Shown here: piece after piece, positions 690-61,792 of the stretch
How positions within the stretch are numbered: position 1 is the first letter of the stretch
How the letters are laid out: each line of letters opens with the position of its first letter
Assembly (NCBI GenBank): GCA_029204225.1
Contig: CM055092.1
Location: forward strand, 12,712,476-12,776,475
Source: Diphasiastrum complanatum
Lineage: Eukaryota > Streptophyta > Lycopodiopsida > Lycopodiales > Lycopodiaceae
Length of the DNA stretch: 64,000 nucleotides
Reading direction: 5' to 3'
Position numbers and translations under genes: made by a program
Notes under the pieces: generated by a model
Told to the model about the DNA's origin: nothing
The model's database searches: none
What the model saw: the letters and a program-made list of their open reading frames with translations, nothing else

Positions 690-1228
690 AAATTAATGGA
701 TTATTTGTAAGATACTACATTTTGCAAATATTTTAAATTTGGACTGAGCGACCCAAAATATTAAAAATTTTACATTCAAATCGCCAAAAAATAAAACATT
801 AATTTTGTCCAATTTTTTATTATAAATAATAAATTAGGTGAATGTTACACAATTTAATGTTAACAATTTAAAATTTGAAAAAATGCTACAAAATAATTAT
901 TCTTTTTTGAACTCAATCTACAAAAATATTATTTGTAACACACGCTACATTATTTGTGAATTATCAAAAGTTCTTTTATATTTTAATTTTTAGTTATATT
1001 TTTTAAATTTTCAGTTTAATATTTAATTTTCTAGTTTTTTATTTTTAAAATTTATTTTCTTATTATTAAAATTTATAGTTTAAAATTATTATTATTTAAA
1101 ATTATTTTTAATTTTTATATTTAAATTTTTTGATTTTATAATCTTAAAAACTTACACAATTTTATAAAAAATCAGAACATTAAAAAATTTAAAATTAAAA
1201 AAAAAAATCAAAAAGCTAGACATAGTCA
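690..1228. other. AT-rich stretch without a gene
   Basis: Long A/T runs and no credible reading frame. It lies between the ORF relic and the first transposase-like piece. It could be the end of the neighbouring element, but I see no convincing terminal repeat. Confidence 0.6.
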
Positions 1229-2665
1229 AGGACCTATGCTTAGTGTTAAAAAATTGATATTAGTTCTCAAGTTAGATGAATCAGAAGTAATAAAGGGACA
1301 AAAGCTAGAAAGGGTTAGTGTTACACTTATGAATGGAGCATTAAGCAATACCCTAAACTCGGAGAGTCCGAAAATAATATTTGGTGGTTGGCAGCTTTCC
1401 AGGTTTAAATCTATTCTATTGAGTACTAGCAACTAATTCATTTCGAGAATATATGGTTTTGTGTTTTAAGCTAATATTGTTTTGTTATTATAGGTCCAAG
1501 TTCAATTCTCTAAAAATAGTTCATAATTTTGTGTTTCAAACAAGTTTTAAAAGAAGATCATGACATTCTATTTTGGATTTTTAGTAAAACAGAATATCCA
1601 TAGATAATTAAGAATCATATGAGCGACACACCACTCAATGTTCCTGGAATAGGTGACTTTAAGGTGGAATGGCATTTGGCTGGAGATTTGAAGTCGTTGA
1701 AGTGCATGTTCAACGTTTCACATGGAGCAAATTCAAAACATCCATGTCTCTATTGCATGAAAACTACACATGACATGTTGAAGAGCACGAGAGTTTCAAG
1801 GGATATAGAAGATCTGACTTGGAAACCAGTAATGCCGATTCTGCTTAAAAATGTTCACATTTGTACACTACATGGAGAGGTTAGAATTATCGAAAAATTG
1901 ATATACCTTCATATTTGGTTTGCTTGGAATACTAAGCCAGAGTCATTAGCCAAAAAAGCAATAGCTCAATTGGAAGAAGTTTTATCAAAAGTGGGACTTC
2001 ATAAAGGACACGCTAAAATACAAAAGGACGAGAAACTTTCAGGGAAAACGAGAAACATCCCATGCAAACCAAGTATAGGAGGATCCAAAGCTCGTCGTTT
2101 CTTATCAAATCATTCCGGAAAACCAACTAAATCCAATACTCAATTTGGATAGATGTACTCAATGCCACAAAAGATTTTGAAGAAAAAGGAACAACGAGGA
2201 ATAAAAAAGTTGAAGTTTGGACAAAGCTTGACAACATGGTCAAATTGCTCAGAAAAGATAAACTGTCTGACACTGATGTCCTACTAATAAAAAAATCAAC
2301 AATTGAGTTTGTGGATGCAGTTAAAGACGCCTGGGGTGAAAATCATATTACACATTAAATGGTAAATCTCTTTGCAATGTAACTAACTCTTCGAATTATA
2401 ATCTCATTGCACGTATGCTAAATTTAAAATGATTAATATAACAATATTTGTATCTCTGATATTGCAGCACATTTTACGACATCATGCATCATTTTTTGCA
2501 AAAACTTATGGTAGTCTAAGTATTTGGTCATCACAAGGAATGGAGAAATCGCATTGGCAAGCTAGAGCAGCATTTCATCAAAATACACAACATGGTGGAA
2601 CATCTCAAAAAAATAGTTACATCATCCAGCTACTTCAATGGTTCTACAGGCGTATTCAAATCTGA
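1229..2665 (+). pseudogene. C-terminal half of a transposase-like gene, broken
   Basis: Four coding pieces follow one another. First is 1236-1436 (LKLDESEVIKGQKLERVSV). Next is 1619-2152 (EWHLAGDLKSLKCMFNVSHG, then a C-x2-C pair in HPCLYCM). A third runs in another frame from about 2146 to 2358 (WIDVLNATKDF to GENHITH, ending at TAA). Last is 2465-2665 (HILRHHASFFAKTYGSL, QGMEKSHWQARAAFH). A likely intron lies between GTAAAT at 2361 and TTGCAG ending at 2465; joining across it gives an expected HITH-x-M-HILRHH reading with one stop in the way. One frameshift near 2150 and that stop make it non-functional. The GDLK...GANS..PC..C and QGMEKSH patterns recall uncharacterised transposon proteins I have seen mainly in animals and protists; this assignment is from memory. 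The upstream half appears to be the minus-strand gene at 8.7-9.9 kb. Confidence 0.6.
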
Positions 2666-2828
2666 TATAAAACTAGATCAACAAATTATTAGAAATTCAA
2701 AAAGACGTGCAAATTTATAGACGAAAATAATATTGATGCAAGACTCAAACCATAGTAATTTTCATGATATCAAATTAAAAAAGTATATGTATTATATCAC
2801 ATCATTTCAAGTACAATGCAAGGCAATA

Positions 2829-4322
2829 TCATTGTTTCTCTTTGTCTTTAATGATTAGCTTTGTTGTGTGGTCATGAAGAAATTTTTTTCTATCATATGA
2901 ATCTAGAAAATCAATGGATCTTCTTTTGCTCAAGTCAATGTATCTGGAGGAAATAACTAAGGAGGAAGACCTTTTTGGAACTTCGTCAGCTACATAGCCA
3001 AATACTTTTATGACAATGTCTCTCTTCGTAGAAATAATTTTATATGTATTTGGAGGGCATTTATGCTCGTTCGTGAAATAGGATAACGCTTTAATTGCCA
3101 TTATTACTGTCGCAGCATCTGAAGAAAATTTGCTATGATGAATGCAAATCTCTTTATTTACAAAGCACTTCAAATAATTGGTCAGGGATGAATCCCTTTG
3201 TCGTGATCCTTGGCCTTCCCTCAAATATCCCTGCCTTGTTGCAAAGGCATCCACCTCCACAATAGCCTGTAAAATACGAGCAAAGGTCACATATCTTGAA
3301 AAACAAAATAACTATATTTGAATAAAAATCTCATTTAGATAAAACCATATTTATGTACCAGATCATGCTCATCAGCTTGAATAAGTGCAGCAGTATGTAG
3401 ATCATGACCAGCAACAATGGTTGTCGAAGCAGTGGATGGATTAGTTTCCGAAGACTGTGACACATATTTGTTTCGGATTCTCAGAAATTTCTCCTCGTAG
3501 GGCAAATTTGCCTGGTATGCCCTGTTTTCAGACATGATTGACTGCAGGGCTTCAGTCTCATCCAGCCATTCATCTCTATCTTTGTAATCAATAGAAACAC
3601 GTAGATCATCATCACCATCGAGATCTATGAAATTAGACAAAATTGATAATATTTTGTCCTCCCTCAGATCAAGAACATCTCCAACATCATTCAGAGAGAG
3701 GTATGTGACACTTTTCATGTAATACACCGGCAAATCGAGGAGAGTCTTGGTTTTGTCATATGGATTCACGTCAGTTAAGGAAGAAATGGACAATGCACGA
3801 GACTCGGCTGGGTCGTACATTGCTGCCAATCTTGCCTCCTCGTCAGCACCCAAGCTGTCATCAACAATAGCTGACTCTGATATCACAAAATCAGCTGATG
3901 ATGAGGCATCTTCAATGCTTAGCCTCGAAGTTCCTACCTCCTCAGGAACAAGAGCAGAAAGATGCCTTCCTACAAAAAGCGACATGATTGATTGTGCTGG
4001 TCACAATGGACCACACGTTTAAAATCACTCACTATTTTTGTGAATCATCGGTTGCGGCTTTGCTTTGAAGATGGTTGGGCAAGTACCAGGTCATGGAAAT
4101 GGATGAATTGTAAATTATCCATTATCAACATAAATTGATTCAAACTATCATAATACTCTTTATACAACACTGAAAAATAGCATTTATGTTCTGATCCAAA
4201 CCTCTCAATATCAAAAGACATATTGAAATCGTCTTATAGTGACCTATGTGGTTACCAACACCGGATTCAATGAGGAAGGCATGCAATGCATAATCAAAAG
4301 TATTAGAAGATGAGGCGACCAT
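2829..4322 (-). CDS. Three-exon gene of unknown function
   Basis: I do not recognise the product. A complete spliced model can be drawn: exon 1 4322-4256 (ATG at 4322), intron 4255-3970 (GTAACC...TTTGTAG), exon 2 3969-3359, intron 3358-3267 (GTACAT...TTTACAG), exon 3 3266-2829 with TAA. Both joins keep frame (phases 1 and 0) and give about 371 residues. An in-frame TGA lies just upstream of TTG 4388, so ATG 4322 is the first usable start. The N-terminal half is acidic and serine-rich; residues about 60-180 hold repeated Asp/Glu clusters, and the C-terminus is basic (SKRRSIDFL, DRKKFLHDH). No membrane segment or signal peptide is evident. It is transcribed away from the CENH3-like gene, out of a shared promoter region with its own TATA box at 4587-4596, and converges on the broken transposase half. 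Two clean introns suggest recent or continuing function. It may be an accessory protein of the transposon; that is inference. Confidence 0.6.
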
Positions 4323-4324
4323 CT

Positions 4325-4500
4325 CGAAAGTATGACCGGTAGGGCTGAGTATCGCTACGATGCGGGGTGGCAGGGAGTTAGAAGACAATCAGGGAATCCT
4401 CACGTGATGGCAATATTGGTGACTGACCGGATATCGGAATGATGCGAGGGATCCAAGATCGTCTAGAATCTGAAATAGATTCTTGCGTGGTAGCGATACT
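4325..4500 (-). repeat. Leader repeat, inverted copy
   Basis: Read on the minus strand this contains ATTGCCATCACGTGAGG...CGCATCGTAGCGATA, the same pattern as the plus-strand leader at 5168-5400 (ATCGCCATCACGCGAGTCC...CGCATCGTAGCGATATC). The two genes facing away from each other therefore carry related 5' leaders as an inverted duplication around the central array. Confidence 0.65.
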
Positions 4501-4585
4501 GCAAAGAACTAGTAGTGTTGACACACCAAGAGCTACAGGGAGTGAAAATCCAAAACTAAGCAAAAGATTTTAACTGATCAAACAG

Positions 4586-4612
4586 CATTTATATAGCTAA
4601 AACCAATAAAAT
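4586..4612 (-). promoter_or_regulatory. TATA box and CCAAT-type box of the left gene
   Basis: On the minus strand the order is TTTATTGG, TTTTAGC, then CTATATAAA, about 265 bases before the ATG at 4322. The spacing and the opposed TATA box at 5082 support a divergent promoter. Confidence 0.55.
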
Positions 4613-4629
4613 CCAAGCCGTACACGCGT

Positions 4630-5058
4630 CGATCCAACAGCGGATCAGATCTATGACGTGTAATATAACTGTCCACATGTGCGAGACCACATGTGCTACA
4701 ATACACGTCAATCTGCCATTCGGCCATGTGCCCACACGTTCGAGCTAATACATGCTAGAACGCACGTCACCAAACCATTCGACCACGTGGCCAAACGTGC
4801 AAGTCCCACACGTGTTGCCCGTATGTGCAATTTCACATGTGCGGATACAGACGTGTATTCCACACGTCAAGTATTGATTGGGCCACGTGCCCACACGTGC
4901 GAGAATATACGTGAGAGAATACATGTCGCTGATCCATTTGGCCACGTGTCCACATGTGGGATACCACACATGTTGATCCAGACGTGCAGTTTCACACGTG
5001 TGTATACAGACATGTGGTTTCACACGTTAGTTACTGATTGGGCCATGTGTCGCAAGTA
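4630..5058. repeat. ACGTG/ACATGTG-rich array between divergent genes
   Basis: About 430 bp packed with G-box-like cores (CACGTG, ACACGTG, ACATGTG, ACGTC). A recurrent longer unit reads roughly GGCCACGTGCCCACACGTGC and is repeated with drift, near CCATTCGGCCATGTG, CCATTCGACCACGTG, TTGGGCCACGTGCC and TTTGGCCACGTGTCC. ACGTG cores are bound by plant bZIP and bHLH factors. Because the motif is palindromic and sits between opposed TATA boxes, it could serve both genes, or bind a transposon protein. Reading frames across it on both strands come from the repeat. Confidence 0.7.
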
Positions 5059-5081
5059 TTTACAAATGCCAACTTTTTTCC

Positions 5082-5091
5082 ACTATATAAG
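5082..5091 (+). promoter_or_regulatory. TATA box of the CENH3-like gene
   Basis: CTATATAAG lies about 335 bases before the ATG at 5419 and just right of the ACGTG array. It mirrors the minus-strand TATA box at 4587-4596. Confidence 0.55.
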
Positions 5092-5167
5092 TCCATTCTT
5101 GGGGATTGTACAAGTTTTTGCGTAATTTGCTTTCACGTTTGATTGCTTCCATATGACTTGCTTTTGT

Positions 5168-5400
5168 GATATCGCCATCATGCGAGTGACCTCATCCCCA
5201 GGCCTATTCCTTACACCCTCTCGCGTCGTAGCAATATCAGCCTGACTCTCCCAGTATCGCCATCACGCGAGTCCCTTCATCTCCCCGCCTAACTCTACTA
5301 CTCTCTCGCATCGTAGCGATATCACCCTCACAGTTCTCAATGTTGCCATCATGTGAGATAATCTAGCTTTCTCTTCTGTTGTATCTCTGTCCTCACGTGG
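5168..5400 (+). repeat. Repeated 5' leader (about 85-90 bp units)
   Basis: Two and a half direct units of the form TATCGCCATCAYGCGAGT...CTCTCGCRTCGTAGCRATATC, at about 5168, 5254 and 5340. The last breaks down before the ATG at 5419. Related sequence occurs inverted at 4325-4500. The units contain GCGA/TCGC pairs that could fold in RNA or bind a protein. Confidence 0.65.
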
Positions 5401-5418
5401 TATAGATATCCGGCCTCA

Positions 5419-7269
5419 ATGGCTTGGACGAAGCAAACCGCTAGTCTTACCAACTTTGTTCAATCATCTCGTCCCCAGACTTCTGAACTCGTATGTCCGC
5501 AAAGACGCGGAAGACCTCGCTGTCCATGGTTGAGGGACATCAGGGCATTGCAGAGGAGCACCAAACTTTTAATCCTGAAAGCAGCCTTCTATCGGACTGT
5601 CAAGGAGGTTACACAAGATATGACCACTCATCTGCCCTATGCAGTGAGGTGGAATATCATTGCATTGGAGGCACTCCATACTGCATACGAGGACTTTCAA
5701 ACAAAATTGTTTGAGGATTCGATGCTGTGCTCCATTCATGGCAAGAGGGTGACACTGATGCCCAAGGACATGCTTCTTGTCATGAGGCTTCGAAACACCT
5801 ATGATAGCATTTTTACATCTGGCTTCACACAGAGGCAAGTTCCTCTTGAAAGAGGGCCTGTCCCACCCCGAAAAAAGAGAAAGCAAGCGCAGCCCAAGCG
5901 TTCGCAACCCAAGCCCAGGTCTCCCAACTCTTCACCCTTACCTCCTCCCATTAGAAAAGATCTGGCTAGTACGTCCGCAATTCCATTGGTTGAGAGTCCT
6001 CCCCTAACCCCTGATCTTCACCTGCAAGATTCTCCTTCTATGCATGCGGATGACCTAAATACAGTGGTAGACATGATTGTTTCTGATGTTGATGCAACTG
6101 ATAAAGAGTTGCACATCAGACTTCCCAATGAACCTAAAGACACATTTTTTTATTCTGAGAGGTACATTGATTTTGACATGTATATAGCCAAGAAAATAGA
6201 TGATCTCGGAGGAGATTTTATGTTTGGTATAGACGATATTAATTTTGCAATGCATATCAAAGACCCGCATTGTAGGGAGCTAAAAGAGAAGACCTCCTAT
6301 ATCTCAAACACAGTTGTTGAATCCGCTTGTGCATATTATGTACATAAATACACATATACAGTCACGAAGGAGATTTTTTTTGTATCTCTATTTTTTGGGC
6401 ATCTGTTGAATAAAGAGAGAAAAGCTAGAAGGCTCTCCAGGCACACTAGCACGGAGGCATCAATGTTCATCATTCCATACTATTCAAAGTAAGATAATTT
6501 CTTCTTGTAATATTTGTTTTTTGTAAGATTTGCTTTTTGGAAACTCTTATAGATTCTAGTAATTCATTGCTTGTCATTTTCTGGCAGCAAACATTGGAGT
6601 GTGCACGTCATATCCATGAAATTGGATTCTACTAGAAGCTGCACACCTGTGTGCATGACAATGAATTCTTTGCATGCCACCCATTCCATGGGTAAGTCCA
6701 TGTACAAGAGGATGGTGGAGCTATTGCCCAGGCTGCGGATGGGCTGATTGTAAATACCAACAAAGAGATTGTTGATGCAAAGGTAAAAAGAATCTTTTTA
6801 CGTATTTTATTTGCATGATGGCATGGAGTTTTATATTGAATTATAATTTAACAAATTTTGCTGTGATTTCTCAATCTTCGCAACAAGACAATGCTTTCAG
6901 CTACAAATGATATTCAATCTAGAATGTTAAATTGTTCTTGGATTGGTATATGGTGCAACCTCCAAATGCTAATATCCGTGAGGTATTTTTCTCAAGTTCC
7001 AATATCCTGATGATATATTGTTAGCTTTGTGAATTTATAGTTTTTAAAACATTGGCTAATACATACATACACTTGATATTTTATCTTGTAGTTCCAATGT
7101 CCTGAGGTATCAACAAATGCGATTCATCAGTATCGGCATGAAATGTTGGAAATTTTACTGTGCAAGGCCCTACAAGCATGAAGGTGCCTTGGATGAACTT
7201 GCCAGGGAATCTGTGGATGAAGTTGTAGTGCTCAAGGATATGCCTCAAGCACCTTTGATTGAAATGTAA
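5419..7269 (+). CDS. CENH3-like histone fold joined to a probable Ulp1/C48-like domain
   Basis: The first exon (5419-6488) encodes 356 residues. Residues 1-9 read MAWTKQTAS, keeping the H3 TKQTA tail motif but with Trp for Arg2. Residues 38-127 align throughout with the H3 fold: LRDIRALQRSTKLLI, FYRTVKEVTQDM, LFEDSMLCSIHGKRVTLMPK, LLVMRLR. RW at 77-78, an extra residue by loop 1, and SMLC-IH-KRVTLM are closer to plant CENH3 than to canonical H3. Then PPRKKRKQAQPKR (149-161), a likely nuclear signal, and a Pro/Ser linker. The C-terminal region to IIPYYS, then the splice 6489-6587 to NKHWSVHVIS, resembles Ulp1/SENP cysteine proteases at the catalytic His-Trp. Later pieces (exon near 6945-6982, intron 6983-7091, exon from 7092) read QCPEVSTN...HEMLEIL and end at TAA 7267 after one frameshift. 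The expected Asp appears as Asn (MNSLHATHS) and the Cys motif is not visible, so protease activity is doubtful. The histone part has no introns, unlike ordinary plant CENH3 genes, suggesting capture by reverse transcription. Confidence 0.7.
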
Positions 7270-7938
7270 ATATTGTCACATAAGTTCCAACAGACACATA
7301 GAAATATATCATCATATTATGATGCATAGAACAACAGATAGGCAAATAGAAAGTTGGCTATTACTGAATGCCACAAATATATTATATCGATTTTAAAAAC
7401 AATGTACATTTTTCAAAATACTTCATAAAAATTGTTCGATGAAATCTTGAAGTCATTTGAGACTTCTTTGAATTTCTTTTTTTTTTTTAAAAAGTACATT
7501 GTTGTTGCTCGTCTATCATCCCAGTGTTTATGCGATTTCAACAATTTCTACGCTTCTATTTAAGTCCTTGCACTGTATGCGACTTTTTTGTCTTGGTCTT
7601 ACCTGTACATTAAAGAAACTTGTTAAACAATATCAACATTGAGATTATTTTAAATGAAATATTGCAATATCGAAAACACTGAAACATTTTTAAATAAAAT
7701 CATTGAAAGTCATTTCAAACGTGAAAATCTTGGACCTATAGTGTTGCGTATACTTTGTCAGATTGGGTGCATGCAACAGCTAAAAACGCAAAATATTTTC
7801 AAAAGGATCAAAATCCTTAAAAAGAGTCATCATTTTTGAGTTTTTCAAATTTTGTCAAAAACATGTTTTTTCACAAAAAATTTTCATAAATCAAAAAAAA
7901 TATTTATACAAAAAATATCCATTTTGACCAAAAAATTA
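7270..7938. other. No recognisable gene
   Basis: AT-rich sequence with poly-A/T runs. A 61-codon frame at 7654-7839 has no recognisable motif. Confidence 0.6.
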
Positions 7939-8331: not shown

Positions 8332-8552
8332 GAGAAGCAGAGCAAAAAGTTTTTTCATATGCTCAACATAGTTGAATCAAATTTATTTACATAAAATCTT
8401 TAAATTAAACAACAAAAAGATTCTTTACAAACTTAAAGATTCTCGTATGACCTGCATAGCAAATTTTATTTTGCTATGCTCGTCGGCATGGTAAATTTTT
8501 TTAACAAACTCAAGTCACCTTGCAAAGGGACTAAGACTTTCCTTCGGATAGG

Positions 8553-8690
8553 GCATGTGTTGAGCATAGGTCCTCTCTCGACCTATGCTGAGCATAGGTC
8601 ATCCTCTCCTATGCTCAGCATAGGTCCTCCTCCCTCGACCTATGCTCAACATAGATTCTCTTCCCTCTGACCTATGCTAAGCATAGGTCC
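8553..8690. repeat. Tandem palindromes CCTATGCTNAGCATAGG
   Basis: Four to five copies of the 17-bp near-perfect palindrome separated by CT-rich spacers (TCCTCCTCCCTCGA type), spaced about 27-32 bp. The array ends exactly at the broken end of the minus-strand transposase-like gene. One half-copy, GACCTATGCTTAG, lies at the other broken end at 1231-1243. Confidence 0.8.
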
Positions 8691-9882
8691 TCCCTCAACC
8701 TTTCCATAAAACTTTACAATAAACCTCAGTAAATGATTTAGATCTACAAACATATTGTTGGTGGAATCATATGACAAAGTGCCATGTTTTGAGTTATAAA
8801 TTTCATTGATATGGTAAGGAATACCAATGATGTTTTGCAAACCCCTGTTTAACACATCCTTCTCTAATTTGATTTGAAAGGGCCGACGAATAGGAAATTT
8901 TTTTATATGTACTTGTTCAAATGCCTCTTTGATAATTTTAAACATTGTGTCATATGCATCCCTGCTAATACCAGAATAATCACATGCTCCTTGTATCAAT
9001 TTTTGGTCAGTGATCTTGTCGACTTCGCCCATAAGGGCCTCTGCAATCTTGGACTTGATTCGAGAATATCGTTGATTTCCTAGTAGACTCGTTGTTGACT
9101 TAGTTGTAAGTACTGCACTCAAAGACTTTCCAATTATGTCCCTGTCTTTCAAATTTTCATTGGTGACTAAAGCTGATCTGCAAAATAAAAATAAGATTTA
9201 GAAAAAAAACAATTCACAATCATTGATGTGCTAGATACAAAACACATGAATAGTTTAAAACATAATCTTACTTGAAAGCATATATTCTTTTTTTCCGTTG
9301 ACCCCCACTTGATGAAAGCTCGTCAATACTTTTTAAAATAACTCTTTTTCGCTTATTGTTCAGTATTTTCTTCCGTAATGTGTTTACTTCTACATTTATT
9401 TGACAATATGAGATACGCAATGTTTGTACAATTAGTTTCATATTGTCAGTTTCTTGGTTGAAATTTAATATAATATCTTGCAAACAAGAATTATCTATCT
9501 TCAAGATTTCATTCTCTTCTTTTGTTTGCAAAAAAATAGTTTCTCTTTCTCGGTAGTCAGTAAGCAAACCATTCAACATATTTTCCAAACAATGGATTTT
9601 TTTTATTGAGTTACTAATGCCATAACTTTTCAATCTTTCACAATAACCAAATAGACCAATGTGTCCTTCACACAAAAACAGTATGAGTTGTGTGACCGAT
9701 CTAAAATTTGGATGTTGCATTGAGCTTGGATCGATTGTATACAAACTTCCATCAACCCACAGATCACAATGTTTCCTCTCTTCCGTCCTTTGGTGAGCTG
9801 GTAAGGTGGATCCTTTCAGATTTTTTCTCGACAATGGAGCATATTCTGTGGGAAGATCAATATGGAGATGATATTTAGACAT
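8677..9882 (-). CDS. N-terminal half of a transposase-like gene
   Basis: ATG at 9882 (MSKYHLHIDLPTEYAP). Exon 1 runs 9882-9272, the intron 9271-9178 (GTAAGA...TTTTGCAG), and exon 2 from 9177. The join is in frame (phase 2). Exon 1 has a predicted coiled-coil-like stretch at about residues 90-180 (LENMLNGLLTDYRERE, KEENEILKID) followed by basic residues (NNKRKRVILK, GGQRKKR). Exon 2 encodes DYSGISRDAYDTMFKIIKEA and a region ending LLRFIVKFYGK. The genuine frame stops making sense where it enters the palindrome array at about 8690; beyond that the frame reads repeat sequence to 8646. The 15 nt AGGACCTATGCTTAG at the break recur at 1229-1243 in the same frame at the start of the C-terminal half. 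Frame-preserving splice sites and no stops suggest young age. The transposase role is inferred from the partner half. Confidence 0.55.
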
Positions 9883-9962
9883 CTTAATAATCAGTAGATT
9901 AATCTAGTAGAAAACCAGCTTGTTATATATCTTGTAAGCTACTAAAACTTGTCTTAATTAAA

Positions 9963-10245
9963 AAAAAAAATTAATTGGAAAAGTTTGAAATGACCTTGGC
10001 GCTCTTTTTGATCCATCACACTCCATGTTTCTTGCTTTATATGCAAAATCAAAGCTTTGCAGTTATGAGCAAAATATTTTTTCAATAGATGTGTGTTGAA
10101 ATTGCAAATTTTTGAATTGCAAAAGTTTGAAATAACCTTGCCGTTCCATTTGATCCAACACACTCCATATTTTCTGAATTGCAAAAATCTAGATTCACGT
10201 TGGCGCTCACTGTGATCCAATATATTCCAAGTTTTTTGCCATGAT
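9963..10245. repeat. Three degenerate tandem units upstream of the minus-strand gene
   Basis: Units containing CTTGGCGCTC...TGATCC, CTTGCCGTTCC...TTGATCCA and GTTGGCGCTC...TGATCCA recur at about 9993, 10136 and 10199. They lie 5' of the ATG at 9882 and could be promoter or subterminal repeats of the transposon. Confidence 0.5.
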
Positions 10246-10499
10246 TTTTAGATCAATAAGACTATTTTCTTTTGATGTGAATGCTATGAGTAGATGGAAA
10301 GAAAACTTTGATGTGCAATACGATTTAGTTAATGGTAGAAAATAGAATCTTGAAGTATGGACCCCACGCGTTGCGGCTACCCAACTTTCAGTTAACTACA
10401 TACGTTACTAGTGAGGTCAAGTCATCAGAGTTGTGCGGGCAGACCAAAAACTCGGTCGAAGTTTTTAAATCCGACGATTTTCTCTCTCTTACGTGGCAT

Positions 10500-11145
10500 T
10501 TCTCCCTTTTGGGCCTTGGAACTCCTCTAATGCGAATCGGCAAAGTGCATGTTATTACATGCGACACTTCTGAAGTCCTTCTAGGCTGAAGTTATTTCAA
10601 CAGCAACCAATATTCAGAATAGATGTCCTACTAAAGGTCTCTCAGACAACATATCTTAATGGAGTTATTGAAGAAGACATTGACATGGTGCAACTCGAGG
10701 TTATATCATCGAAGTATGTGTAAACTCCATAGAGCACTTTATGGCTTGAAGCAATTTGCTCCAGCATGGTTTCAAAGGATCAATACTTTTCTTATTGATC
10801 ACAGCTACACACCTAGCTCTTCAGATTCGAATGTTTACTTCAAGACAGTGCAACAGTCTTTTATCATTATCACTCTTCAGCAACAGTATTAATATGATAA
10901 AAAAAACTAAGACTATGCTACCTTCCGAATTCGACATGACCGATCTGGACGAAGCTCATTTCTACCTTGGTATTCAAATACACAGGGACAGAAATCAGAA
11001 GTTGTTCTACATTACTCAGTAGAGGTACATCTACAACATGTTAGTCATATATAATCTGGTTAATTGCAAGTTAGCTCTCTCGCCAATGGAACCAGGTCTC
11101 AAATTGTCAAAGGACCAGTGTCCGCAAACATTCGAAGAGGAGTAG
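10500..11145 (+). pseudogene. Copia pol fragment (integrase end to reverse transcriptase)
   Basis: The 5' piece reads KVHVITCDTSEVL, shared with the minus-strand fragment at 52.7 kb. From 10620 the reverse transcriptase is recognisable: TYLNGVIEEDIDMVQL, then KLHRALYGLKQFAPAWFQRI, SSSDSNVYFK and DLDEAHFYLGIQI, spread over three frames. The palm motif YVDD is missing or disrupted. It belongs to the same family (D) as the elements at 27.8 and 57-62 kb. Confidence 0.8.
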
Positions 11146-19700: not shown

Positions 19701-21516
19701 CAAGCATCCTTTGGAGTTAATCCACTCGGATGTGCATTTCTTATCAACTACAAGCAAGGGAGGAGCCACTTGTTTTGTTACTTTCATTGATGATTACAAA
19801 AGATTCACTTGGATATATCTTCTTGCTTCAAAATCTATGGTGTTTGATCATTTCCTTATTTTCAAAGCTTAGGTAGAGAAGCAATTCTCGTTCAAAATTA
19901 AAGCTCTTAGAAGTGATGGAGGTGGTGAATATATCTCCAATAAATTTCAAGATTTTTGTGAGCTTTCTCTATGTGAATGTGCAAAATCTATGAGAATTGA
20001 GGCATCTTTGCCCAAAGATTTTTGGGGAGAAGCCATTAATTGTGCAAATTATCTTTGCAATAGGCTCCCACATATAGCTCTTGGAGGAAAGTCACCATAT
20101 GAAATCTTATATTTGAAGAAGCCTAAGGTTGATCACCTTAGAATTTTTGGATGCATATGCTTTGTCCATATTCCCTTGGAAACAAGGAAGAAGGAAGATC
20201 CTAGTGCATGCAAAGGGATCATGGTTGGATACTCATCCACCAAGAAGGCCTATAGAGTCTTTATACTCTCTACTTCTCAAGTTATTGAAAGTAGAGATGT
20301 TGTCTTTCATGAAGATCAACACTCATCTTTTGAAGAGGCCGAGATCAAGAAATATATGGATGCATCACCGATTATTGATTTTGAAGACAATCATGATGTG
20401 ATGGGGTCGAGATTTGAAGAAGACTCTCCTCGAATTTTCTCACCAAGAAGATCCATGAGAGATAGATCTGAGCCTAAGAGGCTCTCATATGTTGACAAAG
20501 GCAAACAAGTGGATCTTGATTCCACTAATTATGTTTTTTATGTCTCTCATGAAGAGCCAAAGAATGTACAAGAGCCACTCAATACCAAGGAGTGGTATGA
20601 TGCCATGAAACAAGAGTATGATGCATTGATCACCAACAATACTTGGGAGCTTGTGGATCCTCCATCCAACAAGCATGTGATTGGTTGCAAGTGGGTATTC
20701 TGGATCAAGTTCAATCATGATGGCACCATCAACAAGCATAAAGCAAGATTATGTGCCAAAGGATTTGGTCAAATCCATGGCCTTGATTATGAGGAGACCT
20801 TTGCACCCGTTGCAAAGATGGTGACAATAAGAATTCTTATTTCTCTTGCTTGTTTCTTCAAGTGGAAGGTGTTCCAATTAGATGTATCCAATGCTTTTCT
20901 AAATGGTTATCTTGAGGAGGAGATCTATATGGAACAACCTCAACGATTCATCAAGGATGAGTCCAAAGTGTGCTTGCTCTTCAAAAGTCTTTATGGACTC
21001 AAGCAAGCACCAAGATCATGGTATTCAAGACTTAATTCTTTTCTTATCTCACTAGGATTTACTCTTAGTGACTATGATCTTTCCATGTATCTAAAGTTTG
21101 TTGATACCAATATTGTCATTATTCTAATTTATGTTGATGACATTATTCTTTTTGGAAGTTGTATCAAGCTAGTTGATGAAACTAAGCTAGCACTTGGATG
21201 TGAGTTTAAAATGCAAGATCTAGGAGAGATACATTACATCCTAGGCCTAGAAATTGAGTTTTATGAAAATCATGTCTTTATATGCCAATCTAGATATGCT
21301 CACTCTATGTTGAAAAAATTTCATCTGGAAAATTCTAAGAGCATAGACACTCCAATGGAGCAAATTGTAAAAGATCCTAATAAAGGTGATGAAAGATCCT
21401 TTGAGGAAATCACATTTTTTAGGAGTCTTGTAGGCTCCTTGATTTGGCTTACCATTACTAGGCCCGATCTAAGTTTTTTGTGTGCACAAATTGGGGCAAT
21501 TTATGCAAGATTCTAA
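19701..21516 (+). pseudogene. Copia integrase (part) and reverse transcriptase
   Basis: Begins inside the integrase core (LIHSDVHFLS, VTFIDDYKRFTW, ALRSDGGGEYIS), with one stop at about 19871. Then a 508-codon open frame (19990-21516) holds the end of integrase (SLPKDFWGEAINCANYLCNR, RIFGCICFVHIP) and a nearly complete reverse transcriptase: WKVFQLDVSNAFLNGYLEEE, SLYGLKQAPRSWYSRL, palm motif LIYVDDIILFG, and MQDLGEIHYILGLEI. It ends at a TAA before RNase H. The open frame suggests recent insertion, but the missing gag and protease prevent autonomous movement. Confidence 0.92.
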
Positions 21517-24018: not shown

Positions 24019-24668
24019 AGAAATGAACATCTGAGTTCAAATGGTTGCTTTGTCTTGATACTTGATCTAGGAAAAGGCCTTCTGTGTGACTTTGCCAACA
24101 CACAAGCTTCACAAGGTAGAAGCTCCTTTGATAGTGTCTTTGGTAGACCAACAACTTTTCCTTCTTTGACCATAGATTGCATGGCTCTGAAATTGGGATG
24201 ACCCAATCTCTTATGCCACAGATCCTCCTGTAGAACCTTGGTCTCATAACCAATATCTGAAATATTAGCACTCTCCCTAGAATCTAGTTTGTACAACTTA
24301 CCAATTCTAGATCCTCTAGCAATAACTTCATTTTCTCTTGAGATTATACACTTGTCAACTTGAAACTTGACATCCAATCAACTATCAAACAACTGTCCTA
24401 CACTAATGAGATTCTTAGTCAATTTAGGTACATACAATACATCATGTAAGCAAAAAGATTTTGATGATGATGCATGTAATGGAATGCTACATATTCCTTC
24501 AATCCTACACTCTACATCATTAGCAGTATAGATTGACCTTTTTGCACGTAGATATGGCATGAGATTAGTGAAAGAGTTCCTAGAACTAGACATGTGGGAA
24601 CTAGCCCCACTATCTATGCACCAGACTTCTTCATTCTTAAAAGGGAAAGATGAAAAAGTAGACATCAT
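24019..24668 (-). pseudogene. Copia family C protease and pre-integrase
   Basis: The minus-strand frame 24668-24378 holds the aspartic protease (VWCIDSGASSHMSSS, LHDVLYVPKLTKNLISVGQL). After one stop the next frame has the GAG-pre-integrase domain (LWHKRLGHPNFRAM, LPCEACVLAKSHRRPF). It is cut at about 24019 by the junction with the gag-only unit; integrase, reverse transcriptase and RNase H are absent. Confidence 0.88.
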
Positions 24669-25555
24669 TAATGAATCCTCTCTACACCCTCACACTCACC
24701 CTCATTAGTAAGGCTAGCTTTCTTAGATTGGTGCTTCTTCTTGAAACAATTTAATGCATAATGTCCTTTCTTTCCACATAAAAAACACTTGATCTTTGAC
24801 AGCTTCTTCTTGCCACTGGATGTTGCACCTTGTGAGGACTGATCCTCACCACCTTCTTTGGCTTTGTCCTTCTTGAAGTGTTGTTGTCCTTTGCCCTTGC
24901 CTCTTGACTTGTCTCTGATGAAGATTGCTTTGTCATCTCCACCATCTTTCAATGAAACTCTATTGATCCTCAGCATCTTGTTCTCTTGCCTACTTTCTTT
25001 AGCAATGAGAACACCTTGCGGTGTCTCCAAGGATGGAAGATCCTCTCTAACAACATAAGTCTGCACAATATTGTCATACTCATCTCTAAGTCCATTTAGG
25101 ACTACTTGAAAAATTTCAGTGTTCTTAAGAGCATCACTACTACCAGCTAACTCTTGATGAAGATCCTTAACTCTCATGACATATGATGAAGCACTCTCAT
25201 CTACTCTCTGATAACTTAGAAATATTTGGTTTCTAAGTGTAAGCAATCTAGAAGTATCTTTGACTTCATAGATTGTTTTTAGAGTATCCCAAGCTTCCTT
25301 GACAGTGGTGCATGTACTGATCTCTCTTAACACTTCATTGGTAACATTCATTTTTATAAAATGAAGGGCAATTTTGGTTCTTTTGTGGAATGCTGCAGCT
25401 TCATTAGATGCAGTAGGTTCTTCTTTAGCTCCACTCACAATATCCATTACATCCTGTAGAATCAATAATGATTCCATTTTGATCTTCCACATTTTATAAT
25501 TGGAAGATGTTAATCTCTCACTGTGCTCTAAGAAATGTGAACCAGATGAAGACAT
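24668..25555 (-). CDS. Copia family C gag
   Basis: Intact 295-codon gag with ATG at 25555 (MSSSGSHFLEHSERLTSSNY). It shows the copia gag core (YKMWKIKMESLLI, AWDTLKTIYE, QIFLSYQRVDESASSYVMRV), a Lys/Gly-rich linker and a CCHC zinc knuckle CFLCGKKGHYALNC near residue 265. The protein would form the particle and package RNA. Pol downstream is truncated, so the copy is not autonomous although gag itself is unbroken. Confidence 0.88.
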   Translation of the reverse strand: MSSSGSHFLEHSERLTSSNYKMWKIKMESLLILQDVMDIVSGAKEEPTASNEAAAFHKRTKIALHFIKMNVTNEVLREISTCTTVKEAWDTLKTIYEVKDTSRLLTLRNQIFLSYQRVDESASSYVMRVKDLHQELAGSSDALKNTEIFQVVLNGLRDEYDNIVQTYVVREDLPSLETPQGVLIAKESRQENKMLRINRVSLKDGGDDKAIFIRDKSRGKGKGQQHFKKDKAKEGGEDQSSQGATSSGKKKLSKIKCFLCGKKGHYALNCFKKKHQSKKASLTNEGECEGVERIH

Positions 25556-42052: not shown

Positions 42053-43027
42053 TTGTTATGGATCGCCCTTACGATCCGAATTCTATGGAGGACTATCCAC
42101 CAGAGATGGTCTCCCCATCCACCGAACAGGCTCGATTTAACAGATATTTGGAATTATATAGAAATGAAAGGAATCCCACCTGAAATAGTCATCCATAGGA
42201 TTCATTTAGAAGACAATGCTAAGCCTATTAGGGCTAAACCCTATCGATCTAACCCTGTCTATTGTGAGCGGATCGACGAAGATATTAAGAAATTGTTGGA
42301 TGTTGGCTTCTTTTATGAAGTTCAACATACTGATTGGGTATCACCCATTGTGGTTGTACCCAAGAAAAATGGCAAGCTTCGTATCTATGTCGATCTCAAA
42401 AACCTTAATGTGGTTATGAAGAAAGACCATTTTTCCTTGCCTTTAACGACCCAAATCCTAGAGGAAATGGCAGGAGCTGAAGCTTTCAGCTTTTTGGATG
42501 GATTCAGCGGGCATTTCCTTGTTCAAATAGCCCCTGAAGATAAACATAAAACGGCCTTTGCAACAGAGAACGGGGTTTATGCTTATAACATTATGCCTTT
42601 TGGCTTATGCAATGCCCCTTCAACATTCCGAAGGGTCATGCAACTGGCCTTTCAAGATCTGTTACATCGATCCGTGGAGATTTATCTCGACGATCTAGGT
42701 GTACATTTCCCTGCAACTACACACCTTGACGCCCTAGAGAAAATCTTCATTCGATGTCGTAGATTTGGAATCTCACTAAACCCTGATAAATGCCAAATAT
42801 GGGTCACCCATGGGGTCGTACTCGGGCATATAATTTCAAAGGACAATATTTCTACCGACCCGTCAAAAATCAAGGTTATAATGGAAATGCCCTTACCTGC
42901 AACAATGAAGGAAGTATATGTCTTCCTCGGTCATACAAATTATTATCGCATCTTTATAATCGACTATGCCGGCAAGGCACGCCTCATTTATTTAGTTGTC
43001 GTAGATCTTCGCTGGACCGAAAAATGA
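42053..43027 (+). pseudogene. Gypsy reverse transcriptase
   Basis: Open for 324 codons. Visible motifs: KPYRSNP, DWVSPIVVVPKKNGKLRIYV, FLDGFSGHFLVQIAPEDKHK, YNIMPFGLCNAPSTFRRVMQ, palm EIYLDDLGVH, and GHIISKDNISTDPSKIKVI. It ends at TGA just after RWTEK, where RNase H should continue, so the polyprotein is interrupted here. Confidence 0.93.
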
Positions 43028-43732
43028 ATTAAGGCCTTTGAGGAGTTGAAAACAGCCCTCACCACGGCTCCCATACTCTGCTCACCAGATTACACAAAAG
43101 ATCTCCATGTGCATACTGACGCAAGTAATTGATATAAGTATGCCATTGGAGGTCTTCTTGCACAATTGGACGAGTATGGCAAAGACTTTCCAATACGTTT
43201 CTTGAGCAGGCAACTGGTGCCTGCTGAAGTAAACTATACAACCACCGAGAGAGAAGCATTGGCGATGGTCTATGCTGTGCAACAACTAAGACATTATTTA
43301 TTAGGCCAGACCTTTGTGTTCTACACAGACCATCAAGCCCTGCTATATATCGTTAATAAATCCTATAAAACGGGACGTATAGCTCGATGGCTGTTGATTT
43401 TAGAGGAATTTAATTTTCGCGTAGTTGTTTGGAAAGGGACCCAACATTTCATGGCGGATCACCTTTCTAGACTACCAAGTGCTGAAAAAGCAACTGCACC
43501 AGTCAATGATGATCTCCCTGATGCATGCCTTTTTCAGATCGATGCTACACCCTTATGGGCTGAGGAGATCACTCAGTTCCTCACAATAGGCAGACTCAAA
43601 GAAGGCCTGAGTACGGCGACAAAAAGAAAATTTTTGCTAAAAGTAGCGCCCTTTCAATTAATTGCGGGACAACTTTACAAAAGGGGCGTTGACAGTATCA
43701 TTCGTCGATGTGCTTATGAATATGAGATATGA
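43028..43732 (+). pseudogene. Gypsy RNase H
   Basis: Continues in frame after the stop with LHVHTDASN, another stop, then 43166-43732: FLSRQLVPAEVNYTTTEREA, YTDHQALLYIVNK and TGRIARWLLILEEFNFRVVV. Ends GVDSIIRRCAYEYEI before a TGA. Confidence 0.92.
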
Positions 43733-44839
43733 CCTATCATATCTCAGGCTCATAAGGGCATTGGAGGTGGCCACTTTTCTGCTGAAGCCACAGCGAAGAT
43801 TATCCTTCGAGCAGGACTGTGGTGGCCATCTTTGTTTAAGGACACGTTTGTTGTCATTAAAGTGTGTGATGTTTGTCAACGAGCCAAGAAAAACACCAAA
43901 CCAGACTTCACGCCACTGACTCCCATTATCGAAGCCTTCCATAAGTGGGGAATTGACTTTGTTGGACCAATCAGTCCAGCAACAAAACATACCCAAGCTC
44001 GTTACATCCTCATAGCCACAGATTACGCCACTAAGTGGGTGGAGGCTCGAGCAACGAAGGACGCCAACACAAAAACAGTCGCGCGTTTTTTTTACGAAAA
44101 CATTATTACACATTTTGGCTGTCCCATTGAGCTAGTTAGTAATCGCGACACGTATTTTTTAAATGCTGTCATTGATAACCTCCTATGCCATTACCTTGTT
44201 GTTCACAGAAAAAGTACACCGTACTACCCTAGATGTAATGGCCAGGCTGAATCAACTAACAAGACGATATGTAAAATTTTGACCAAGATAGTTGAAACCA
44301 GTCGTTCTGATTGGGAAACAAAACTTTTCTCAGTTGTTTGGGCTTACTGCACCACCCCGAAGAAAGCCACTAGGTGGGTTACCCCTTTCCACTTAGTATA
44401 TGGTCAAGAGGCGGTAATGCCAGTAGAATTCTTAGTCCCATTATTACGAGTCATGGAAGCTTTTTCAACAGATCTCTGTGAAAAAACTGCAATCGAACAA
44501 CAACTCAAAACAGGCTATTTACGGTAACCCAGTTATGCGAGACAAGACTTATATCTTACCACGCACAACTGGTTAATAAACGACGCCAAAAGGCCTGGCA
44601 TGACCGTCACCTACGCAATAAAGATCTACATTTAGGTGACCAGGTTCTTCTTTATACATCCAAGAAGCACCTCTTTTAAATTGAAATTCAGAAGTGAGGG
44701 GTTATATGTTATTAATAAAATCTTTCCTAATGGTGCAGTCCAGTTGCAAACACTTGACGGAATCCTCCTAGACATTGTCGTAAATGGTGGTCATCTAAGG
44801 CGGTATTACAAAGAGTTGTTTTTTGTTGACCCAATTTAA
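43733..44839 (+). pseudogene. Gypsy integrase
   Basis: Zinc-binding region (HKGIGGGHFS, WWPSLFKDTF, CDVCQRAKK), then the DDE core: KWGIDFVGPI (first Asp), ELVSNRDTYFLN (second Asp), PRCNGQAESTNK (Glu). The frame 43832-44527 is open for 231 codons; a C-terminal piece at 44636-44839 ends at TAA without a chromodomain. The ATDYATKWVEARATKD sequence is of the Tat/Athila type. Confidence 0.92.
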
Positions 44840-61240: not shown

Positions 61241-61792
61241 CTACTTTCCAAGGATTCCGAGGATGCAGCTATGAGAGACAAGGAGGGGGAGGTCAACTTT
61301 GTCGGTTGGATAGTCAAGATCAAGTGCTAGGGATTTCTTAGACATGTATGAAACAAGTGTATGATTCAAGTGTCCTAAATGATGATGCCATAGTAATGCT
61401 TTATTGACAAGAACAGAGGTCTTCAAGGCTTGACTAGTATCAAAATAACAATGTGCCAATCTATATAAGTTTCCATGCCTCTTGTCGAGTGCAAGGACCT
61501 TAGTCGTCCTATCAAAAATTTGGCATTGATCAGACTCGAACTCTACCTTATGGCCTAAATCAGTGATTCTACTTATTGATAAAAAATTTGTAAAGAGTTT
61601 AGGTACATACAAAACATTTGATAGTAGTTTGAATTGATGATGCTGAAATTTCAATCTTACAGTACCTTCACCTTCGATAGTGTGAGTACTATCATCGCCA
61701 AGATGAACGTATCTTATTGTATTGTAAGGCATATATGAGTGAAAATGTTCACGATGACTGGTCATATGTTGAGTAGCTCTAGAATCCAGAAA
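61241..61792 (-). pseudogene. Copia family D protease end and pre-integrase
   Basis: The frame from 61765 reads DDSTHTIEGEGTVRLKF, LYVPKLFTNFLSISRI and LLWHHHLGHLNHTLVSYMSK, the usual protease-to-pre-integrase junction. The active-site region lies just upstream across a stop. Confidence 0.85.

Follow-up and report, generated by a model that had tools for sequence, protein, structure and literature searches.

Mobile-element copies carrying a fused histone H3–Ulp1-like gene in the genome of Diphasiastrum complanatum

The genome of Diphasiastrum complanatum holds hundreds of mobile-element copies in which a histone is fused to an Ulp1-like domain, and comparison of gene copies suggests that selection kept both parts working. 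The sequences support the existence, in this plant genome, of a large and diverged transposon group that carries a RAG1/Transib-type gene together with a gene for an H3 histone, a linker and an Ulp1/SENP-like domain. A plant source is supported by 32 matches in the genome to the auxin-response-factor family PF06507 (best 3.2e-21), which is not known outside land plants and their algal kin. Histones are DNA-packaging proteins. Transposons are known to carry captured genes, and in a few cases the cargo includes an enzyme of DNA methylation or silencing. A sequence-only reading of the window, by which we mean the whole stretch of 64,000 nucleotides analysed here, had proposed an H3-type histone joined to an Ulp1-like domain within a mobile element; this proposal was borne out, and the two parts lie in one reading frame.

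Structure and copies of the fused gene

The histone-Ulp1 gene of the window comprises the following features, each given with its basis.

5419..6488, + strand: exon 1 of the histone-Ulp1 gene (ORF 5419-6492, 357 aa)
5419..5445, + strand: H3-like N-terminus, MAWTKQTAS in the window copy (MARTKQTAR-type in other copies)
5530..5802, + strand: H3 histone fold, residues 38-128 (Pfam match, PDB sequences)
5863..5922, + strand: basic NLS-like linker PPRKKRKQAQPKRSQPKPRS, residues 149-168 (sequence)
6121..6486, + strand: first half of the Ulp1-like domain, sharing exon 1 with the histone fold (alignments A4 and A5; PDB profile)
6588..6782, + strand: exon 2, KHWS with the catalytic-type His, and MNSL with Asn replacing Asp (copy comparison)
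6875..6982, + strand: exon 3, QQDDAFSCGWY in other copies (copy comparison)
7092..7269, + strand: exon 4, FQCPEVSTNAIHQYRHEMLEILL... in other copies (copy comparison)

The histone fold, which had been placed at residues 38-127, was found by the Pfam Histone family (PF00125; residues 14-125 of the window ORF, E 1.5e-22, cut-off passed) and by the sequences of solved H3 structures (residues 11-126, 3e-21), in comparison with which loop 1 of the window fold is 4 residues longer. The window ORF likewise contains both the TKQTA tail motif and the basic run. The proposed splice from 6488 to 6588 agrees with the other copies, in which exon 1 ends and exon 2 starts at these positions, but the gene is longer than had been thought, because two further exons exist at 6875-6982 and 7092-7269. 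In the resulting four-exon model, which was derived from DNA alone and holds across copies, exon 1 encodes the H3 fold together with the linker and half of the C-terminal domain, namely the first, and exon 4 encodes the last helix-like stretch. With regard to the possibility, raised beforehand, that the histone and C-terminal parts never share a transcript, a single exon carries the H3 fold and the first Ulp1-like half. We predicted an AG at the exon 3 acceptor of the other copies, and of these, 13 of 14 main and 6 of 8 diverged ones have CAG there. The gene in the window is dead, a relic of the element: its exon 3 acceptor has changed from AG to AA (CAA), the exon contains two stops and a Tyr at the catalytic Cys position, and exon 4 has lost 5 bases. 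An intact whole gene, 517 residues in one reading frame, is present in copy c13 (L013).

The search for further copies suggested by the sequence-only reading located the same protein, here called family I, at no fewer than 114 places in the genome (1.74 Gb), and the window copy is therefore one member of a many-copy family. This search yielded 117 rows, six of which are halves of three copies, with the best 114 of 9280 candidates scored; some rows may be duplicated assembly stretches. Apart from the window itself, identity to the window protein ranges from 72 to 90%, and ten stop-free rows spanning at least residues 2-357 occur among the family I matches listed.

Further families were defined from 14 places retrieved in a search with a CENH3 query (best 150 of 5403 candidates scored, E <= 4.5e-14), in which the first 13 of the best 150 rows had canonical-H3-like scores and the one of these that was retrieved (L046) reads as canonical H3. 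Family II (L050) starts with MARTKQTTR, contains HHWS, MNSL and QQVDSFSCGWY, and gave 119 rows from 101 candidates at 52-100% identity. Family III (L051, L052) has the same domain order with Tyr for Cys, and the start of L051 reads MARTK followed by a stop. Family IV (L053, L056, L059), in which L059 starts with MDRRKQTRR and L053 contains GHWS, MN and QQNDSFNCGWY, gave at least 150 rows (of 6977 candidates) at 79-100% identity; six further places on a single contig (C23) match the query at 95-99% identity, a sign of recent spread or duplication. These four diverged families have a common domain order.

Family V, which accounts for seven of the 14 retrieved places (L047-L049, L054, L055, L057, L058), has an H3 fold with CENH3-like letters, a proline-rich or unrelated N-terminal start and a stop at or shortly beyond the end of the fold; none of these seven places showed an Ulp1-like part. 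Its members may belong to another mobile element or may be retrocopies of a variant histone. Two of them (L054 and L055) have downstream ORFs in common. Separately, public contigs encode three H3-like proteins with long extra segments (P0002, P0003, P0004), and P0003 has in common with the transposon histones ALEALH and a DYDKYF-type stretch after the fold.

The C-terminal region, previously described as protease-like, was classified with a multi-family profile. Single C-terminal sequences gave nothing of note against Pfam, PDB and the protein database, and AlphaFold modelling of exon 1 (alignment A4, ten sequences) gave a pLDDT of 42, with no structural match in the fold search. The A5 profile, built from six rows of families I-IV and searched against PDB sequences up to E 10, gave 16 matches, of which 15 were SENP or Ulp1 proteins; these include SENP2 (3.5e-6) and yeast Ulp1 (8.1e-5), with HW and Q..CG aligned. 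Ulp1/SENP proteins constitute MEROPS family C48. The Pfam family Peptidase_C48 (PF02902) did not recognise the domain, and its three matches in the genome include none at the listed places of families I, II or IV (compared by eye). Among family I copies, 24 of 26 have the catalytic His, 22 of 23 the Gln and 16 of 23 the Cys, and the position of the catalytic Asp is Asn in all 25 copies with letters there. In the A5 rows, Cys is present in four of six (families I, II and IV), with Tyr in the family III row and in L040, and M-N is present in five of six, the sixth being a gap. Because Asn replaces the third catalytic residue, protease activity is not assured, and because it does so in 25 of 25 copies, we class the domain as Ulp1-like and not as an active C48 member.

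The carrier element and its transposase-like gene

In the window, the element is divided into two blocks, within which the other genes lie as follows.

1242..7723, + strand: larger element block, from the end of gene A through gene B and the histone-Ulp1 gene to the beginning of the 3' part (blastn comparison with 20 other loci)
8702..10532, − strand: 5' block, with the 5' terminus CATTAGAGGAGTTCC... from 10532 and the first gene A exons (copy comparison)
9253..9882, − strand: gene A exon 1, MSKYHLHIDL... (tblastn, ORF)
8703..9179, − strand: gene A exon 2, first part (tblastn)
1242..2752, + strand: gene A remainder, with KLDE (first D), GDLK (second D), CLYC, HxxxxH and GMEKSH (E) (tblastn, ORF)
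3335..3985, − strand: gene B, a 216 aa ORF on the opposite strand (ORF listing)

In 10 of the 20 other loci both blocks are present, and the 5' block (from about 10532-10535 to 8702) is directly joined to the block running from 1242 to 7723; the window differs in that its larger block has the opposite orientation to the block at 8702-10532, and GGACCTATGCTTAG, whole or as a piece, is found at both joints of this inversion. Palindromic repeat units (AGCATAGGT/ACCTATGCT) also lie near both joints, at window positions 1225-1245 and 8530-8720, and look like another element that was inserted into gene A before the inversion. The element measures 9541 bases in copy c09, with internal gains and losses in other copies, and its termini of about 30 bp are of the CA..TG type: 5'-CATTAGAGGAGTTCC... 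(CATTAGAGGAGTT) and ...AACTCCTCTAATG-3'. No target-site duplication was found at c09, c12 and c15, the three copies with both ends whole; in c27, the fourth copy examined for this feature, the 3' TG is absent. The genes are arranged as gene A (+), gene B (−), the histone-Ulp1 gene (+) and gene D (−), and the window copy stops at 7723, upstream of gene D. Pieces of genes B and D from copy c09 (L009) had no Pfam match over the cut-off. In one copy (L026), sections of the element's 3' part are repeated about three to four times in tandem. Elsewhere in the window, at 19990-21516, 24668-25555, 42053-44527 and 61241-61765, Ty1/copia-like and Ty3/gypsy-like ORFs were recognised when the translations were read by eye.

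Gene A, which is broken in the window, is a RAG1/Transib-like transposase as judged by modelling. The modelled fold of its homolog P0005 is the RAG1/Transib core fold, with VIA-align matches, among the folds listed, to RAG1, Transib, ISCth4, P element and Hermes, and P0005 has the motif D411, D508, C528xxC531, H761xxxxH766, E785; all five parts (D, D, CxxC, HxxxxH and E) are also present in the element's own gene A query. The CxxC occurs in 19 of 21 gene A homologs and the HxxxxH with E in 4 of 21, these four being the homologs in which at least 385 residues follow the second D (at most 288 do so in the remaining 17). Searches of gene A profiles against PDB sequences returned unrelated matches only (best E 0.04 and 0.054), and the homologs had no Pfam match over the cut-off. 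The association with the histone-Ulp1 gene was also seen in family IV, in which a gene A exon lies upstream of the H3 ORF at 18 distinct places, compared with 0.14 in shifted controls. Transib-like proteins in plants have already been reported (PMC9435367), and gene A adds a plant relative of the RAG1/Transib recombinases.

A carrier of the MULE type, a kind of plant transposon that has captured Ulp1-like domains, was rejected on the RAG1/Transib fold of the transposase-like gene and the CA..TG termini of about 30 bp. In Pfam searches, none of nine ORF pieces from copy c09 matched a MULE family, and no MULE is among the 25 listed of the 46 Pfam families for the 21 gene A homologs.

Selection on the two domains

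Ratios of dN/dS were calculated from 26 of 30 family I sequences (c14, c18, c25 and L044 were dropped for gaps) and are given below for the histone fold, the linker and the Ulp1-like part, in that order; the pairs overlap in branches, and the pairwise values are thus not independent.

Main copies vs L040 (16 pairs): 0.14, 0.53, 0.22
Main copies vs L042: 0.14, 0.48, 0.23
Main copies vs L037: 0.19, 0.58, 0.26
Main copies vs L038: 0.16, 0.58, 0.38
Main copies vs L043: 0.34, 0.49, 0.23
Main copies vs window: 0.16, 0.39, 0.40
Main copies among themselves (120 pairs): 0.35, 0.44, 0.40
L040 vs L042: 0.42, 0.99, 0.68
Window vs L040: 0.12, 0.51, 0.27
L043 vs L040: 0.29, 0.62, 0.21
L037 vs L040: 0.25, 0.94, 0.46

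The Ulp1-like part is constrained no more than the linker in the comparisons of the main copies with the window and among themselves; the former may reflect decay, since the Ulp1-like part of the window copy is broken. Variants found in a single copy differ from shared variants in the same direction over the whole gene (N/S 0.67 vs 0.31), in the histone fold (0.60 vs 0.25), in the Ulp1-like part (0.69 vs 0.26) and in the linker (0.69 vs 0.42), with values of 0.66 vs 0.63 in the tail. The plain reading of these sequence patterns is that the fold and the Ulp1-like part would have been constrained during element activity and decayed later; together, the comparisons support purifying selection on both domains of family I during the spread of the element.

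In the tail of family I, K at residue 5 and Q at residue 6 are present in 23 of 23 copies with letters, R at residue 3 in 16 of 23 and T at residue 4 in 15 of 23. Private and shared variants are alike in the tail, and the mean conservation of its first nine residues (0.874) is lower than that of the fold (0.93), so that these data do not demonstrate selection acting on the entire tail.

Possible roles, origin of the histone and relation to known systems

We propose that the histone part brings the Ulp1-like part into chromatin, where the protein might pair with H4 and enter nucleosomes or might be read as an H3 tail. The Ulp1-like part could then remove SUMO from, or bind SUMO on, silencing factors or the transposase complex, and copies of the element would thereby evade silencing, as is thought for the VANC/Kaonashi Ulp1 genes of Vandal elements. 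This anti-silencing role is drawn by analogy, since a review describes what the Ulp1 domain does in Kaonashi elements as unknown (PMC13317346). Taken as a whole, with its supported part (the transposon, the fusion and the selection) and its conjectural part (chromatin and SUMO), we regard this explanation as evenly poised between right and wrong. We further speculate, as an unlikely extension, that by placing its own histone variant in nucleosomes the element might create a private chromatin state, which the Ulp1-like domain would keep free of SUMO-dependent silencing; if so, the element would be rewriting the way in which it is itself packaged, and in this genome such elements would probably be more numerous than the host H3 genes.

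Alternatively, the protein could be a histone mimic joined to a pseudo-protease, whose H3 part binds readers or chaperones and whose Ulp1-like part binds SUMO as a non-cutting decoy. The Asn at the catalytic Asp position (25 of 25 copies, with M-N in five of six A5 rows and a gap in the sixth) and the ARTKQT- or RRKQT-type start in families I, II and IV would fit such a decoy; however, His, Gln and Cys are present in the A5 rows of families I, II and IV except L040 (Tyr for Cys), and comparisons between subfamilies show purifying selection on the Ulp1-like part. We consider this reading improbable. The histone domain might instead steer the transposition complex by marking or finding chromatin, for instance centromeric chromatin, as an insertion target, in keeping with the histone-Ulp1 gene accompanying a transposase gene and with positions resembling CENH3. 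The copies are scattered across many contigs, though, and the kinship with CENH3 has no firm tree support; we regard steering as quite unlikely.

The sequence-only reading had proposed that the element captured a CENH3 cDNA, and a rival explanation follows from this, namely that such a captured CENH3 disturbs or uses centromeric chromatin. CENH3-like positions (RW, LLIP and SMLC) are indeed present in the fold. In loop 1, family I has four extra residues and RW, families II and III have RW without the extra length, family IV has RF, and family V has neither the extra length nor RW/RF. On the other hand, the N-terminus is of the canonical H3 type (ARTKQTAR), with ARTKQT- or RRKQT-type starts in families I, II and IV, and the transposon histones lack the 'PGTVAL' stretch seen in the plant CENH3s of the comparison. 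Trees of 18 and 15 rows were built with plant CENH3 sequences included. In both, a branch separates the histones of families I-IV from H3 and plant CENH3, with 68/87 in the 18-row tree and 84/81 in the 15-row tree, neither branch being starred. Families I-V and plant CENH3 come together in the best 15-row tree (78/87, not starred); a clade of families I-IV with plant CENH3 that leaves out family V is neither supported nor rejected by its p-AU of 0.077 in the 15-row analysis. With CENH3-like positions in the fold but a canonical H3 start and no 'PGTVAL', the histone may or may not derive from CENH3, and we regard the centromeric explanation as very doubtful. The genome's own CENH3 was not found with the CENH3 query, which returned 13 canonical-H3-like and 137 other H3-like rows among the best 150 of 5403; an intron-bearing CENH3 would be indistinguishable among these rows. 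That the fused gene is passive cargo, a functionless captured host sequence amplified by hitch-hiking, would agree with the many broken copies, the window's included, and with the frequency of captured gene pieces in plant elements noted in the accessible part of PMC13317346, but it is highly improbable because of the selection on the two domains (dN/dS 0.14-0.22 vs 0.53 in the linker, main copies vs L040), in addition to which shared variants are more constrained than private ones and one architecture is kept across four families.

If the protein of our preferred reading enters chromatin, it would offer a direct way to study the effect of an element on the surrounding nucleosomes. Automatic annotation could miscount the numerous H3-like ORFs as histone or CENH3 genes.

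Like CENH3/CENP-A and canonical H3, the transposon histone has a whole H3 fold and H3-like first residues, with some CENH3-like positions; unlike them, it is fused to an Ulp1-like domain, transposon-borne and many-copy, and it occupies its own branch in the trees. The Ulp1-like domain resembles Ulp1/SENP in its profile match, which includes HW and Q..CG, but differs in having Asn for the catalytic Asp and in escaping recognition by PF02902. In the literature searched for histones or Ulp1 in transposons, with Repbase Reports and most subscription papers outside its scope, no transposon-borne histone was found.

Among elements carrying genes of chromatin or DNA modification, as this one does, the accessible text of PMC12730594 describes fungal DNA transposons with TET/JBP and Harbinger elements with SET, as transposons encoding epigenetic enzymes, but does not name a core histone among their cargo. 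The same text assigns EnSpm/CACTA, Mirage, Chapaev, Transib, Plavaka, ESTA, Lanisha and RAG1 to the CMCT clade, with which the present element, as far as that description goes, has in common the D-D-E residues, the C(2)C and H(3-4)H between the second D and E, the 5'-CA..TG-3' termini and the RAG1/Transib fold (PMC12730594). It differs from that clade in carrying a histone gene, and no 2-5 bp target-site duplication was seen at its three copies with both ends whole; gene A differs in having no Pfam match over the cut-off and no related PDB profile match. The closest parallel in content is with the Kaonashi (KIU) Vandal MULEs of Arabidopsis and other angiosperms, which carry a Ulp1 domain and are stated to escape silencing, again according to the accessible part of PMC13317346. 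Both are plant DNA transposons with a Ulp1 domain in a second gene; in Kaonashi/Vandal elements, Ulp1 is joined to a VANC-type gene in MULEs, whereas here an Ulp1-like domain is joined to H3 and accompanied by a RAG1/Transib-like transposase.
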